DNA from: an uncultured Eubacteriales bacterium
Lineage (GTDB): Bacteria > Bacillota > Clostridia > Peptostreptococcales > Anaerovoracaceae
Length of the DNA stretch: 57,917 nucleotides
Assembly: GCA_902801255.1 (NCBI GenBank)
Contig: CADCHO010000013.1
Location: 1 to 57,917 of the forward strand
Reading direction: 5' to 3'
The notes beneath the pieces are model-generated. The model had not been told where the DNA came from, searched no databases, and saw only the letters and a list, made by a program, of their open reading frames with translations. Position 1 is the first letter of the stretch, and each line of letters opens with the position of its first letter. Positions 21,525 through 34,408 of this stretch are shown here, in pieces. The translations under genes were made by a program, and so were the position numbers.

Positions 21525-21636
21525 CACTTTTTTTCTCGTGTTCATCACGCTGTTAATGTACTATCTGGGTATATAAATAACCTGCCTCCGGCGCGCCGCT
21601 AAGGACATGCGCCATTGCTTAAGAAAGGAGACATTT

Positions 21637-24201
21637 ATGAGTTCATTAAAGCTCACGGATACGCTGTGGTGGAACGGCGCGCTCGATCCGGATACACACA
21701 TTTCGGACGTAATCGTGCAGATGGAGTTCGGCACCACATATAACTCATACACTCTTAAGGGCAGCGAGAAGACCGCTCTTATAGAGACGTCTAAGTACAA
21801 ATTCTGGGAGGCCTTCAAGGGAGAACTCGATGACGCGGTCGACATCACCAAGGTCGACTACATCATCATGGATCACACCGAGCCTGATCACTCGGGAACG
21901 CTTGAGAAGCTTCTCGCGATCAATCCTAAGATCACGGTGGTCTGCACAGGTACAGCTGCGAGCTTCCTGAAAGAGATCATGAACACAGACTTCCGCGTCA
22001 TGACAGTAAAGGAAGGCGACACACTCTCGCTCGGCGACAAGACCCTGCACTTTATGCCTGTTCCTAACCTGCACTGGCCTGACACCATGTTCACCTACTG
22101 CGAGGAGGACAAGACGCTCTATACCTGCGACGTGTTCGGCGCGCACTACTGCCCTCCGTCGGGCGATGTAAGGCGCAGCAAGCTGACCGGTCAGGACGAA
22201 GCCAACTACATGCGCACGATGCAGGATTACTTCAATATCATCATCGGGCCGTATAAGAACCCGTTCATGAACATGGCGCTCGAGCGGATCAAGGATCTCG
22301 ACATTCAGATGATCTGCCCAGGCCACGGTCCTGTGCTGGATGCAGGCATTGACTGGGTCATGGAGAAATATCATGAATGGTGCAAGAGACCTGAGCCGAA
22401 AGACACCAAGCTGGTAGTCATTCCTTACGTAAGCGCTTATGGATATACAGGTCTCCTCGCCGACAAGATCGAAGAAGGCCTCAAGGCAAGCGGTCCTATC
22501 GAAGTGCATAAATACGACATGGTATTCGAAGAGAACGTCGCCGGAGTCATTGCTGATCTCAACGCGGCTGATGGAATCCTCTTCGGAACACCTACCATCG
22601 TTGCAGACGCTCTTAAGCCGATCTGGGATCTCACAACGAGCATCTTCCCTCCTCTCATGAAGGGCAAGCTCGCCAGTGCGTTCGGCTGCTACGGCTGGAG
22701 CGGTGAAGGAGTCCCTAACATAATCGAAAGACTAAAACAGCTCAAGATGAAGGTGCTCGACGGCTATCGCATCAGATTCAAGCCAAGCGAGACTGAGCAG
22801 CTCGACGCTTTCGACTTCGGATACAACTTCGGCTGCGTACTGCAGAACAAGGAAGTCAAGAAATCCAGCACGCCTGCAGGAGCCAAGAAGATGGTGAAGT
22901 GCGTGGTATGCGGAGCTGAGTTTGAGGAAGGCACGGATACATGTCCTGTCTGCGGAGTCGGCAGCGACAAGTTCGTACCGGTAGAATCCAAGGCGACCAG
23001 CTTCAGGAAAGATACAGACGAGAGATTCGTCATTCTGGGCGGCGGCCCGGCAGCGAAGAGCGCAGCCGAGGCGATCAGAGACCGTAACAAAACTGCGGTC
23101 ATAACGATCGTGACCCAGGAGTCAGAACTGCCTTACAACAGGCCGATGCTCACCAAGGCTCTCCTCTCCGATTTCTCGGAAAACCAGGCTGCGATCGAAG
23201 GACCTGACTGGTACCATGAAAGAAATATCTTCTTCATGCCTGACACGACTGTCACGAAGATCGATACTGCCGGCAAGAGTGTTGAGCTCACACTCCCTGA
23301 CGGCAGCAGCGGAGCTCTTATCTACGACAAGCTGATCTACACGCTTGGCGCGTTCTGCTTCGTGCCTCCTATCAAGGGCGCTGATCTCGGACATGTTGCG
23401 ACAGTCAGAAACATTTCGGATACCGTCCGCATCAAGAAGGTTCTCGAGGAGCGTGAGGCTAAAGAGGTCGTCTGCATAGGCGGCGGCGTAATGGGGCTTG
23501 AAGGAGCCTGGGAGCTCAAGCTCGGCGGCTACGATGTGACCGTTCTTGAGACCGCACCCGGACTGCTTCCTCGCCAGCTTGACGACCCTGCTTCAGCAAT
23601 GCTTGAGAAGATCTGCAACGCCGCCGGTGTCAAGATCGTTACCGGAGCGAAGATCGTAGAGATCACCGAAGATGCGGTAGTACTCGATGACGGAACGGCA
23701 TTCCCGGCTCAGCTCGTCATAATGTCGACAGGCATGAGACCTTACACAAAGGTCGCTGAAGACAGCGGTATCGAAGTCGACAAGTGGGTCAAGGCCAACG
23801 ACCGCATGGAGACGAATGCTAAGGATGTATATGCTGCCGGAGACTGCTGCGTTATCAACGGACAGCCTCAGGCATTCTGGGCACAGGCTATCGAAACAGG
23901 CCGCATCGCCGGAGCCAATGCTGCAGGTGAAGCACTTGAGTACAAAGCGCTCGGCAGCTCACTTGTCATCAACGCGATGAACACGAGCATCTTCGCACTC
24001 GGCACCAACGGCAAGGATCCTGACAAAAAGTTCCGTACGGTAGAGTTCAGAGATGACCAGAGAGGCAATTACGAGAAGTACTACTTCCACAACAACCGTC
24101 TTGAGGGCGTCATCCTTATCGGCGACACCGACCGCATGATAGAGCTCAGCGAGAAAGTCGACAAGCACGCTACATATAAGGAAATGTTCGGCCGCAAATA
24201 G
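21637..24201 (+). CDS. flavodiiron protein fused to rubredoxin and NADH:rubredoxin oxidoreductase
   Basis: An 854-residue cytosolic enzyme that reduces O2 (or NO) to water (or N2O) with NAD(P)H, a self-contained oxygen-scavenging chain. Order: metallo-beta-lactamase diiron domain (1-250; His80, Glu82, Asp84, His85 in MDHTEPDHSG; also HWPD, GAHYC, CPGHGPVLD), flavodoxin domain (about 255-405), short rubredoxin (about 418-448; CVVCG and CPVCG), and a FAD/NAD-binding reductase (about 460-854; ILGGGPAAKSAAE, VCIGGGVMGLE, AAGDCC). The ATG at 21637 has AAGGAG upstream. All metal-ligand motifs are present. Monocistronic, ending at a strong terminator. Fusions of this layout are known in Clostridia. 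Confidence 0.93.
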   Translation: MSSLKLTDTLWWNGALDPDTHISDVIVQMEFGTTYNSYTLKGSEKTALIETSKYKFWEAFKGELDDAVDITKVDYIIMDHTEPDHSGTLEKLLAINPKITVVCTGTAASFLKEIMNTDFRVMTVKEGDTLSLGDKTLHFMPVPNLHWPDTMFTYCEEDKTLYTCDVFGAHYCPPSGDVRRSKLTGQDEANYMRTMQDYFNIIIGPYKNPFMNMALERIKDLDIQMICPGHGPVLDAGIDWVMEKYHEWCKRPEPKDTKLVVIPYVSAYGYTGLLADKIEEGLKASGPIEVHKYDMVFEENVAGVIADLNAADGILFGTPTIVADALKPIWDLTTSIFPPLMKGKLASAFGCYGWSGEGVPNIIERLKQLKMKVLDGYRIRFKPSETEQLDAFDFGYNFGCVLQNKEVKKSSTPAGAKKMVKCVVCGAEFEEGTDTCPVCGVGSDKFVPVESKATSFRKDTDERFVILGGGPAAKSAAEAIRDRNKTAVITIVTQESELPYNRPMLTKALLSDFSENQAAIEGPDWYHERNIFFMPDTTVTKIDTAGKSVELTLPDGSSGALIYDKLIYTLGAFCFVPPIKGADLGHVATVRNISDTVRIKKVLEEREAKEVVCIGGGVMGLEGAWELKLGGYDVTVLETAPGLLPRQLDDPASAMLEKICNAAGVKIVTGAKIVEITEDAVVLDDGTAFPAQLVIMSTGMRPYTKVAEDSGIEVDKWVKANDRMETNAKDVYAAGDCCVINGQPQAFWAQAIETGRIAGANAAGEALEYKALGSSLVINAMNTSIFALGTNGKDPDKKFRTVEFRDDQRGNYEKYYFHNNRLEGVILIGDTDRMIELSEKVDKHATYKEMFGRK

Positions 24202-27571: not shown

Positions 27572-29428
27572 TTATTCCATAGTATCCTCTTCATCGTACT
27601 TATCTGCCAGAAGCTTGATCACCACCATCGATGCCACTGACAGACCTACATAGGCGATAGCGGCTGCGGCAGTCCTGCTTATGTTGAGATCTCCGAGACC
27701 CCGCCCTATCATCGCGTAGAGGATGATGTCGGGCATGATTCCGAGAAGGCTGCCTGCAACATACTGCGGCAGCTTCACCCTTGCCGCACCGAGGTACATG
27801 CTTGCTATATCGTAATTCATCATCTTGAGGAGCCTGAGCAGCAGCACAAAAATGAACGGTCTCTCGTTCTTCAGTCTGACCAGCCCGCGGAGTTTCGAAT
27901 ACTTCCCTTCCATGTCCTGCAGCTGCTCACCAGCCAGCTTGTTGCCGATGAAATAGCCCTCGAATATCATGACTAGGGCGCCGGCAATATTCATCGCAAT
28001 TGCTGCCGGGAGACTGAAAAGTGTTCCGTTTGCCAGGAACAGCAACCCCGAATAGAAGAATACCGAGAGCGTCTTCAGACCAAACATCAGCAGCATCACT
28101 ATTGCAGCCAGATACGGCTCCGACGGAGTATACGACAGTATGGCGCTCAGGGATATCCTGTCATGAAGGCAGAGCGCCACTATCATTACCATCACCCAAA
28201 GTGAGATGATAAGTGATCTTGAGACTGCGGAAACATTGGCCGGGTAATCATCGCCCCAGACGACCTGCAGGTACATGCGCGTGTACATCAGCAGAGCGAG
28301 CAGCACTGTGACGGAACACGCAATTATCATCATGTTAGCCAGCGGCCGCGGAACGTTCTGCCATAGAATCAGCACTGCGGAGACTGCCGTCATCGACGCC
28401 TTGCATATCTTTCCGAACCACTTCGAGCTGTACACCCTGCCATATCTCGAAAACAGGATGTAACCGTATATTATCTGGCACAGCTCTCTGAACATCATTA
28501 CCATCAGAAGGAGCCACATCCACCTGTACTTTGGCACCAGGCAAATGATAAGCACTGCGATCAGCACCTTGCTTACCGCCGAGTCGAAGAACTTTCCGAA
28601 GTCCGTAACGCAGCCGGTCTTTCTTGCGACCGCGCCGTCGATCATGTCGCATATCACTGCTGCAGCGACCACCGCAAAGCTGCCGGCGTACATTTCTCCG
28701 AGATAAAGGCGGACTATCACCGGTAACAGAAGCAGCCTGAACAGGGTTATCGCATTAGGAAGATTGACGATGTTCTTTCTGCTCATCACCTCTCTGAGTT
28801 TGTCTCCGACCTCAGGGCTTGCCTCATTGAAGGACAGTCCCCATGCGGCGAAGCTGACCGGAAGCGCGACCACCGCGTCCACTATGGAATGCTGCTTCAC
28901 GAACAGAGTGGATACGCAAATGAAAAACACTGTCACTGCCATTGCCGTTTTTACACCGATCGACATCCGCTCGTTGGCGTACATTGCCGCAAACATCAAG
29001 CCCATTGAACCGATAACATGCATGGATGGGCAAACGTTAGCAGGCGTGTCAACGAGGTAGATCATAGATACTATCCAGGTGAAGATATTGTTGTGCTCAA
29101 AGCCGTCCGGTCTCAGTGAGTGACAGCTAGGATATATGAGAAATGCAGCGAACGACAGAATCGCTCCGACGATGAAGAACTGCATCATCTTCCTGAAAAC
29201 AGGCCTGTCGTTTCTGAAAAGATAGACGATCATGATCAGCGAGATCACATGCCATGAAAGATACGGAATAATAAAAATTTCGCTGAAAGGGATCAGATCG
29301 TCCATGAACATATGGATGGTATGATATTCAGCGCCTATGTTGACCCTCTCGACGATCAGAAATGCGAGGAGGTACAGCGGAAGAAACAAAAAATATTGAT
29401 AGTCATTGTCTTTTTTGCCGCCATTCAT
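27572..29428 (-). CDS. triple-domain membrane lipid enzyme: PAP2/Aur1-like + CDP-alcohol phosphatidyltransferase + DedA/TVP38
   Basis: 618 residues from the ATG at 29428; an upstream GTG (29470) would add 14 codons but lies in a hairpin/promoter. Domain 1 (about 1-205): PAP2_3-type phosphatase/phosphotransferase with CPSMH (His137) and STLFVKQHSIVD (His180, Asp184). Domain 2 (about 215-400): CDP-alcohol phosphatidyltransferase with D261MIDGAVAR269, then G278KFFD282; the fourth motif Asp is replaced by Ser286 (PgsA-type proteins have D there), so catalysis is doubtful. Domain 3 (about 430-610): DedA/TVP38-VTT type with LRLLKMMNYD and SLLGIMPD. These activities make, dephosphorylate and flip phospholipids, so a joined lipid pathway is a reasonable inference. 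I know of no characterised protein with this exact order. Confidence 0.85.
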   Translation of the reverse strand: MNGGKKDNDYQYFLFLPLYLLAFLIVERVNIGAEYHTIHMFMDDLIPFSEIFIIPYLSWHVISLIMIVYLFRNDRPVFRKMMQFFIVGAILSFAAFLIYPSCHSLRPDGFEHNNIFTWIVSMIYLVDTPANVCPSMHVIGSMGLMFAAMYANERMSIGVKTAMAVTVFFICVSTLFVKQHSIVDAVVALPVSFAAWGLSFNEASPEVGDKLREVMSRKNIVNLPNAITLFRLLLLPVIVRLYLGEMYAGSFAVVAAAVICDMIDGAVARKTGCVTDFGKFFDSAVSKVLIAVLIICLVPKYRWMWLLLMVMMFRELCQIIYGYILFSRYGRVYSSKWFGKICKASMTAVSAVLILWQNVPRPLANMMIIACSVTVLLALLMYTRMYLQVVWGDDYPANVSAVSRSLIISLWVMVMIVALCLHDRISLSAILSYTPSEPYLAAIVMLLMFGLKTLSVFFYSGLLFLANGTLFSLPAAIAMNIAGALVMIFEGYFIGNKLAGEQLQDMEGKYSKLRGLVRLKNERPFIFVLLLRLLKMMNYDIASMYLGAARVKLPQYVAGSLLGIMPDIILYAMIGRGLGDLNISRTAAAAIAYVGLSVASMVVIKLLADKYDEEDTME

Positions 29429-29464: not shown

Positions 29465-29485
29465 TGACACAAACCATACCCTTTG
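29445..29485 (-). terminator. 16-bp hairpin after the pip-like gene, overlapping the next promoter
   Basis: 29445-29460 pairs with 29470-29485 (CAAAGGG.ATGGTTTG arms); the single difference is a G-U pair in minus-strand RNA. It lies 36 nt after the upstream stop, but no U-tract follows, because the downstream promoter occupies that place. It may be a terminator, a processing barrier or an operator. Confidence 0.5.
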
Positions 29486-33187: not shown

Positions 33188-34408
33188 ATGAACTTAATAT
33201 TTATTGCGCCGAATTTTCCGGAAAATTACCGGCACTTCTGTGACAGGCTGCACCGTAACGGTGTGACCGTTCTTGGCATTGGCGACGCTCCTTATGACTC
33301 GCTCAGTGAAACTGTTAAAAATGCTCTGACCGAATACTACAAAGTTGACTCCCTCGAAGACTACGGACAGGTCTACCGCGCTGTTGCGTTTCTGGCTTTC
33401 AGGTACGGGCGTATCGACTGGATCGAATCCAACAATGAGTACTGGCTCAATCTTGACGCAAAACTGCGGCAGGACTTCAACGTCACCACGGGCGTCATGC
33501 CTCATGAACTTGCTCTGTGGAGGAGCAAGGCTGCTATGAAGCCGGTATACAAGTCAGCCGGAATTCCTTCCGCGCGCCAGCATCATGTATCAACTATCGA
33601 AGCTGCCCGCGCCTTTCTTGATGAGATCGGCGGATATCCTGTTTTCGCAAAGCCTAACGTCGGAGTCGGAGCTGACTCCACCTTCAAGATCGAGAACGAT
33701 GCCGACCTTGAGGCATTCTTTAAAGAGACATCCGGCTTTGATTACGTCATGGAGGAGTTTGTCACAGGAGACATCTATTCTTATGATGCAGTCTGTGATG
33801 AAAACGGGGACCCTCTCTTCGAGTCATCGTTCATGTGCATCAATGTTGCCGAAGCAGTAAACAACGGAACGGAAACCGTTTATTACGTGCTGCCTGAAGT
33901 CCCGGAACAGCTCAAAGGATACGGCCGCAAGGCACTGAAGGCGTTCAAGGTGGGGAGCAGATTCATACATTTTGAATTCTTCAGACTCACCGAAGCGAAA
34001 AAAGGCCTTGGCGATGTAGGAGACTTTGTAGGACTGGAAGTAAACATGAGGCCTGCCGGAGGCTTCACCCCGGATATGATCAATTTCTCGCATTCAACGG
34101 ATGCATATCAGATTTGGGCGGACATGATCAGCACCGGTACAAGCTCGGGCAGAAAGAACGGACCTGACCGCTGGTGCGTCTTTGCCAGCCGCAAGGACAA
34201 GTTCACGCACGTGCACACTCATGACGAGATACTGTCACGCTATGACGGAAAGATAGTGATGTGTCAGAGGATGCCGGATATATTCTCTGAAGCCATGGGC
34301 AATCAGATGTATATAGCCTTGTTAGATACGGAAGACGAGGTCCGCGATTACGTACAGTTCATACTCGACGAGCAGGCAAAGATAGTCATTCCGAGTCTTT
34401 ATAAATAA
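33188..34408 (+). CDS. ATP-grasp ligase of unknown substrate
   Basis: A 406-residue cytosolic protein. The Rossmann-like N-terminus (MNLIFIAPNFPENYRHFCD) is followed by an ATP-grasp fold: YPVFAKPNVGVGAD (nucleotide lysine and flexible loop, about 150-165), YVMEEFVTGDIYSYDAV (about 182-200), and GLEVNMRPAGGFTPDMINFS (metal-binding Glu/Asn, about 280-300). These resemble the carbamoyl-phosphate synthase large-chain/biotin carboxylase-like group. ATP-grasp enzymes join a carboxylate to an amine or thiol; nothing here identifies the partners. It is a lone plus-strand gene ended by a terminator. Confidence 0.85.
   Translation: MNLIFIAPNFPENYRHFCDRLHRNGVTVLGIGDAPYDSLSETVKNALTEYYKVDSLEDYGQVYRAVAFLAFRYGRIDWIESNNEYWLNLDAKLRQDFNVTTGVMPHELALWRSKAAMKPVYKSAGIPSARQHHVSTIEAARAFLDEIGGYPVFAKPNVGVGADSTFKIENDADLEAFFKETSGFDYVMEEFVTGDIYSYDAVCDENGDPLFESSFMCINVAEAVNNGTETVYYVLPEVPEQLKGYGRKALKAFKVGSRFIHFEFFRLTEAKKGLGDVGDFVGLEVNMRPAGGFTPDMINFSHSTDAYQIWADMISTGTSSGRKNGPDRWCVFASRKDKFTHVHTHDEILSRYDGKIVMCQRMPDIFSEAMGNQMYIALLDTEDEVRDYVQFILDEQAKIVIPSLYK

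Follow-up and report, generated by a model that had tools for sequence, protein, structure and literature searches.

A PAP2, CDP-alcohol transferase and DedA fusion protein of Mogibacterium-like gut bacteria in which the fourth aspartate of the transferase motif is replaced

Introduction

PgsA and the other CDP-alcohol phosphotransferases (PF01066; solved structures 7drj/7drk and 7b1k) carry a signature of the form D-x2-D-G-x2-A-R-x8-G-x3-D-x3-D, whose fourth Asp is termed the presumed catalytic base in work on PgsA1 of M. tuberculosis (PMC6506517). The locus described here raises the question of what such a domain does once this residue has been exchanged and the domain has become part of a larger membrane protein. 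The gene lies in a stretch of 57,917 nucleotides from an uncultured Eubacteriales bacterium (contig CADCHO010000013.1; hereafter the window), and its product shares with the PgsA family the first two Asp, the Gly, Ala, Arg and Gly, and the third Asp of the motif. It differs from that family in that the fourth Asp is a Ser (a His in one relative, G313) and in that the transferase domain is lodged between PAP2 and DedA domains in one chain. Within a family of lipid-synthesis enzymes that is very widespread, the protein would represent a pseudoenzyme or a re-tooled member; it would also be a single chain in which a lipid phosphatase is paired with a DedA domain of the scramblase class. Among the matches listed in literature searches, there was no description of a PAP2/CDP-alcohol transferase/DedA architecture or of a CDP-alcohol transferase pseudoenzyme.

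The gene, its distribution and its domain order

The gene occupies positions 27572..29428 of the minus strand and forms a single open reading frame of 618 amino acids, with an ATG start at 29428 and the stop codon included in the span; an alternative GTG at 29470 would give a longer protein, while the plus strand of the same interval holds many stops. Of 47 genomes that represent the genus, 12, with that of the window among them, contain a full-length copy at 85-95% identity, and the frames of these 12 orthologues extend over 614-626 amino acids up to the first stop. The one stop flagged within the match in both G012 and G038 reflects a match that continues beyond the gene's own stop, and not an internal break. 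Across the family (349 genomes, those of the genus among them), a single further triple fusion (G313, 52% identical) brings the count to 13, and a sample of 393 genomes at the level of the order, which overlaps the family set, yielded no additional full-length match. A genome collection also supplied one fragment and nine named loci that carry the gene, under the titles Mogibacterium sp. or uncultured Clostridiales, six of the titles giving goat or sheep gut as the source; by identity, these nine records look identical with nine of the 12 genomes, and are thus not independent of them.

The genome from which the window derives is fragmented (81 contigs, 78.54% complete), a circumstance that would agree with an artefact, be it mis-assembly or a local mutation. 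The same frame and the same Ser nevertheless recur in 12 genomes of the genus, and the nine named records, though not independent of these, agree. This explanation is rejected, its probability being negligible.

Three domains follow one another from the N- to the C-terminus in Pfam comparisons: PAP2, CDP-alcohol transferase (CDP-AT) and DedA/VTT. The matches to CDP-OH_P_transf (PF01066; residues 222-373, E 2.3e-27, 96.7 bits against a cut-off of 22) and to VTT (residues 462-576, E 5.9e-13, 49.8 bits against 33.9) are above their cut-offs, while that to PAP2_3 (PF14378; residues 41-197, E 6.4e-5) is below it with 23.3 bits against 27, a cut-off that is exceeded in two relatives, G313 (42.6 bits) and G040 (34.3 bits). 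The original prediction of three lipid-membrane domains on one polypeptide is borne out, with PAP2 recognized by its motif residues as well as by the scores of these relatives.

The PAP2 module

The PAP2 domain spans residues 9-205 (28814..29404, minus strand). PAP2 motifs are known as R-P, P-S-x-H and K-Q-H-x3-D, and the window protein has all three in common with the PAP2_3 family and in the expected order: motif 1 is R106-P107 (29108..29113), motif 2 is P134-S135-M136-H137 (29018..29029) and motif 3 is S173...K178-Q-H180-S-I-V-D184 (28877..28912), all on the minus strand. R106, P107, P134, S135, H137, K178, H180 and D184 are identical in 36 of 36 PAP2 rows, an alignment made without the short row L051 and without seven orthologue loci that are near-identical; S173 is present in 34 of the 36, and M136 was left uncounted. 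The textbook form of motif 3 has an Arg, whereas here Thr, Val or Ile stands in its place. As read from the sequence, the catalytic motifs of the domain are intact. A search of solved structures by sequence returned no relative of the PAP2 part at E up to 1.

Stand-alone PAP2 genes from genus g100, the closest of their kind, adjoin an acyl-CoA-ligase-like gene in all four loci inspected of the seven fetched, and the three of these ligase-like neighbours that were scanned are all AMP-binding. In addition, the G040 gene is preceded, on its own strand, by that of an acyl-ACP thioesterase. The neighbours of PAP2 genes thus hint at acyl-lipid metabolism, and point to no particular substrate.

The DedA module

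The DedA/VTT domain (residues 406-607; 27608..28213, minus strand) was compared with four E. coli proteins by means of a profile that was built from 13 of a set of 17 DedA domains, giving E-values, for this four-sequence set, of 2.7e-13 for YdjX, 4e-8 for YdjZ, 0.12 for YqjA and 0.28 for YqaA. With YdjX and YdjZ assigned to COG0398, the domain is YdjX/YdjZ-like, and nearer to COG0398 than to members of COG0586 or COG1238. Against solved structures it gave four matches to repeat proteins, of 20-24 residues and with E-values from 0.006 to 0.21, which were taken as chance. In the available portion of a DedA survey, COG0398 proteins are considered unlikely to be undecaprenyl-phosphate flippases and to be possible phospholipid scramblases (PMC10127716); this account, together with the likeness to YdjX and YdjZ, points to a DedA part of a phospholipid-scramblase-like subfamily. 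The same portion of the survey describes oxidoreductase fusions as the most common in COG0398 and names PAP2 fusions for COG0586, and it mentions no CDP-AT fusion, unlike the window protein, which has one (PMC10127716). A reading of the domain as an undecaprenyl-phosphate flippase was also considered and is unsupported, as the domain resembles YdjX/YdjZ and not YqjA/YqaA.

The fourth aspartate of the CDP-AT motif

The CDP-AT domain, delimited by Pfam and by alignment with solved structures, covers residues 219-396 (28241..28774, minus strand). Its motif, DMIDGAVARKTGCVTDFGKFFDSAVS (D261..D264-G..A-R..G278..D282..S286; 28571..28648, minus strand), has Asp at positions 261, 264 and 282 and Ser at 286, encoded by an AGC codon at 28571..28573, so that the family signature is incomplete in its last Asp while the other seven residues are present. 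Among solved structures, phmmer identified 7drj, PgsA of S. aureus (E 2.2e-11), and the PS synthase 7b1k (E 2.5e-4), presumably the Methanocaldococcus enzyme MjPSS, and Ser286 is found opposite the last motif Asp in both. The predicted replacement of that Asp is hence confirmed by the codon and by the two alignments and, based on the alignment to 7b1k, Ser286 would be the equivalent of Asp66 of MjPSS.

The window protein reaches 61.9 bits with the PgsA model TIGR00560, below the cut-off of 109.1, whereas a separate PgsA of its own genome scores 156 bits, above it. Structure prediction gave a pLDDT of 34 for the whole protein and of 57.8 for the CDP-AT domain (12 rows), where six long helices were formed; both models are of a confidence too low for side-chain arguments, such as the choice of a substitute base. 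With this weak CDP-AT model, Foldseek produced no match at E 0.001, and its best four matches were PgsA chains (E 2.4e-3 to 1.6e-2, TM 0.38-0.40). One PHROGs family of unknown function covers the CDP-AT part. A viral origin of the gene was considered and is unsupported, a scan of viral contigs with the orthologue alignment having found no relative.

A predominance of Asp at position 286 among homologues would have marked the exchange as a local mutation, as the original prediction noted; instead, Ser is present in 12 of 12 full-length orthologues of the genus, in 11 as AGC and in one as AGT. All seven other signature residues are likewise invariant in the 12, as are R314-E315 and G339-K340, and the codons of D261, D264 and D282 each show synonymous changes. 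Beyond this clade the picture varies. G313, whose CDP-AT domain is identical to that of the window protein at 83 of 178 positions, has a His at the fourth position and keeps the other seven motif residues. G040, a PAP2–CDP-AT fusion from the window's own genus with a longest frame of 433 amino acids and no DedA domain, has retained the fourth Asp but carries Tyr, Glu and Ala at the first three, in a CDP-AT-like part that matches PF01066 with 26.4 bits. The replacement by Ser thus holds for one clade and has to be refined for the others, with His in G313 and the loss of Asp 1-3 instead in G040. The alignment of 26 CDP-AT rows comprises 24 of 30 loci (six near-identical orthologue loci being omitted) and two loci of the window's genome, one of them partial (C57), and leaves 19 weaker matches outside. 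Within it, the fourth Asp is present in 18 of 18 rows that lack a PAP2 fusion, while the eight PAP2-fused rows include six with Ser, one with His and one in which the fourth Asp is kept but Asp 1-3 are lost.

Published mutants bear on what this exchange may entail. In MjPSS, replacement of each motif Asp by Ser or Asn strongly reduced or abolished activity every time and the D66S variant lost activity, which Mg2+ restored negligibly or not at all, according to PMC8633023; a complete loss of activity for D93 mutants is cited in PMC9385802. The earlier view of the protein as one that also synthesizes a phospholipid is therefore doubtful, since the equivalent Asp-to-Ser mutant of MjPSS lost activity. 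A transferase could still operate if another base took over, such as a water held by Asp 1-3 or the His of G313, or if the acceptor required none, in which case a phospholipid would be made, dephosphorylated and flipped by one chain. The invariance of the first three Asp, of the motif Gly, Ala and Arg, of R314-E315 and of G339-K340 is consistent with such activity, and so is the location of the longest invariant stretch of the protein, which coincides with the active-site run. Moreover, PMC8633023 argues that the true proton acceptor may be a water close to Asp66, and a His has been proposed as the base of human CEPT1 in PMC10156783, so that the His of G313 could act as one. Weighed against the loss of activity in the D66S and D93 mutants and the loss of Asp 1-3 in the G040 relative, a retained transferase activity seems rather unlikely.

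Timing of the change

In a tree of 22 rows (the 26 minus the partial C57 and three near-identical fusion rows), the PAP2-fused CDP-AT domains, namely those of the fusions, G313 and G040, form one clade (99/97), and the enzymes nearest to it stand alone and bear the Asp (95/90). In the first tree, of 26 rows, the partial, Asp-bearing C57 row from the window's genome was placed among the fused rows, with a branch as long as 5.26 changes per column; the placement of G040 is unsure, its branch measuring 2.53 in the 22-row tree. The fourth Asp was most likely present in the ancestor and, since the PAP2-fused domains are nested among Asp-bearing enzymes, the site was most likely altered after the domain joined PAP2, in at least two ways (Ser and His), or three if G040 belongs in the clade. 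The Ser clade is one evolutionary event, and the whole is one evolutionary setting and not many independent tests. A presumed base that was replaced after fusion to PAP2, differently by lineage and with the rest of the site mostly kept, would constitute a natural experiment on the role of this Asp.

The nearest Asp-bearing relatives, in G152, G272, G203 and G375 (L074, L087, L090 and L091), match the cardiolipin synthase ClsA model slightly better than that of pgsA, with every score under its cut-off; no such preference is seen in the window protein.

Decay or new use of the CDP-AT domain

Mean pairwise dN/dS values, obtained by a counting method over 66 pairs of the 12 orthologues, are 0.041 for PAP2, 0.078 for CDP-AT and 0.061 for DedA; with dS near 1, and three saturated pairs omitted from the mean dS of CDP-AT, these figures are rough. 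Taken as estimates, they place the CDP-AT domain under purifying selection that is strong yet the weakest of the three domains. The longest invariant run within the first 614 residues is a stretch of 17, residues 271-287 (TGCVTDFGKFFDSAVSK; 28568..28618, minus strand), which corresponds to the active-site loop and includes both Asp 282 and Ser286; the next three longest contain the PAP2 motifs. When the invariant flags were shuffled within the CDP-AT domain, a run of 17 or longer appeared in 1000 of 100000 trials.

These observations bear on the suggestion that the CDP-AT part is a decaying structural spacer, kept as a mere membrane bundle between PAP2 and DedA. Its dN/dS, the highest of the three domains, would agree with this, as would G040, which retains a CDP-AT-like bundle in the face of a lost Asp 1-3 and without DedA, and the existence of a PAP2–DedA fusion (G011) that dispenses with CDP-AT altogether. 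The seven motif residues other than Asp 4 are, on the other hand, invariant in the 12 orthologues and kept in G313 at the domain identity given above, and the longest invariant run lies at the old active site. The conserved run around Ser286 speaks against simple decay, with a power limited by the closeness of the orthologues (85-95%), on account of which invariance is weak evidence; a spacer is considered unlikely, and an enzyme that once built lipids has probably been turned to another use.

Changing module combinations

Other fusions occur in the family. G152 (CDP-AT–DedA) and G011 have two of the three modules in common with the window protein, at 34-42% identity, but differ from it in that G152 has kept the fourth Asp and G011 is without CDP-AT; an acyltransferase–PAP2 fusion (G030) and a HAD-hydrolase–PAP2 fusion (G139) are also present, as are stand-alone PAP2, CDP-AT or DedA genes. 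The G139 fusion (L095, 3976-5526) unites a HAD-type hydrolase and a PAP2 domain in a single protein, while in L096 (4821-6284), L097 (2395-3843) and L104 (4516-5970) the PAP2 domain follows some 280 N-terminal residues that have no Pfam match at 0.001. Neighbouring VTT matches are paired in G012:C16, G015:C44, G029:C12 and G026:C47, one of each pair lying in a frame of 429-440 amino acids in three of the four, which suggests another DedA fusion or tandem in the genus.

Topology and proposed role

Hydropathy analysis yields 18 candidate membrane segments and positive loops at residues 201-225, 269-279 and 326-337. These loops suggest that the CDP-AT site faces inward. The PAP2 motifs would lie on the outer side provided that a helix begins at motif 2; a plain count of segments, by itself, would place motif 2 inside. 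If the two sites are so arranged, the channelling of the original prediction would require a substrate to cross the bilayer, and sites on opposite faces together with a scramblase-like domain in one chain would make a coherent picture.

Considering the above, about half of our confidence goes to an accessory phosphatase–scramblase, whose CDP-AT domain would hold a metal and a CDP-lipid without carrying out standard phospholipid synthesis. The sequence itself shows the three domains, the intact PAP2 motifs, the conserved replacement of the fourth Asp and the nested origin of the CDP-AT domain; the facing of the sites, binding without transfer, the cooperation of the domains and the substrates are all inferred. 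The protein would thus be a membrane protein that processes phospholipids and is specific to this lineage of Mogibacterium-like gut bacteria. Its PAP2 domain may serve as an outward lipid phosphatase (or phosphotransferase) that acts on a phospholipid or a related lipid phosphate, and its scramblase-like DedA domain may equilibrate the lipid between leaflets. The CDP-AT domain, presumably descended from a working transferase, would have lost the standard reaction. The domain, in which the first three Asp are kept and the fourth has given way to Ser, most likely serves to hold metal along with either a CDP-lipid or a lipid head group at the inner face, and could play the role of a docking, sensing or substrate-feeding module.

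A far bolder suggestion is that Ser286 is itself a new catalytic group, held at the beta-phosphate of a CDP-lipid by the kept metal site, where it would either support hydrolysis of the CDP-lipid or form a phosphatidyl-serine enzyme intermediate, the resulting phosphatidic acid passing through DedA to the outward PAP2 site. Such a reaction, which would be new chemistry for the CDP-alcohol phosphotransferase fold, is very improbable.

Paralogues and gene neighbours

As the window's own genome has, in addition to its separate PgsA, two matches each to VTT and to PAP2 outside the fusion gene, the three-domain protein is probably accessory, and not a housekeeping route. Paralogues were sought in 17 genomes, nine of the 12 with the fusion and eight others. 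A VTT match outside the fusion gene was present in all 17, and PAP2 matches in 15, with at least one outside the fusion in each of the nine fusion genomes; G020 and G043 had no PAP2 match at E 0.001. The notion that the gene is its genome's sole PAP2 or DedA gene is rejected, other matches of both kinds being present. DUF368 was found in none of the 17, in a search whose control was positive in just 3 of 14 genomes.

When the nine named orthologue loci were searched for 13 other genes of the window, five shared between 3 and 10 of them, and four (L002, L008 and the short L003 and L006) shared none. Judged by reading, the genes in common resemble an iminopeptidase, CbiM/EcfT/EcfA and a serine dehydratase, and gene neighbours at the nine loci named no lipid pathway. 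In the closest relative (L001, 10006-14971), about 5 kb separate the fusion gene from the CbiM-like gene, which is adjacent to it in the window; the insert reads like an Old-Yellow-Enzyme-like reductase and a TIR/leucine-rich-repeat-like protein. By its translation, a window gene at a distance of about 4 kb from the fusion (33188-34408, plus strand) is ATP-grasp-like, and its counterpart (L050, 1548-2807) lies two genes before the acyltransferase–PAP2 fusion of G030. Also in the window, a frame of 864 amino acids (21607-24201, plus strand) reads like a flavodiiron protein joined to a rubredoxin and an FAD-dependent oxidoreductase.
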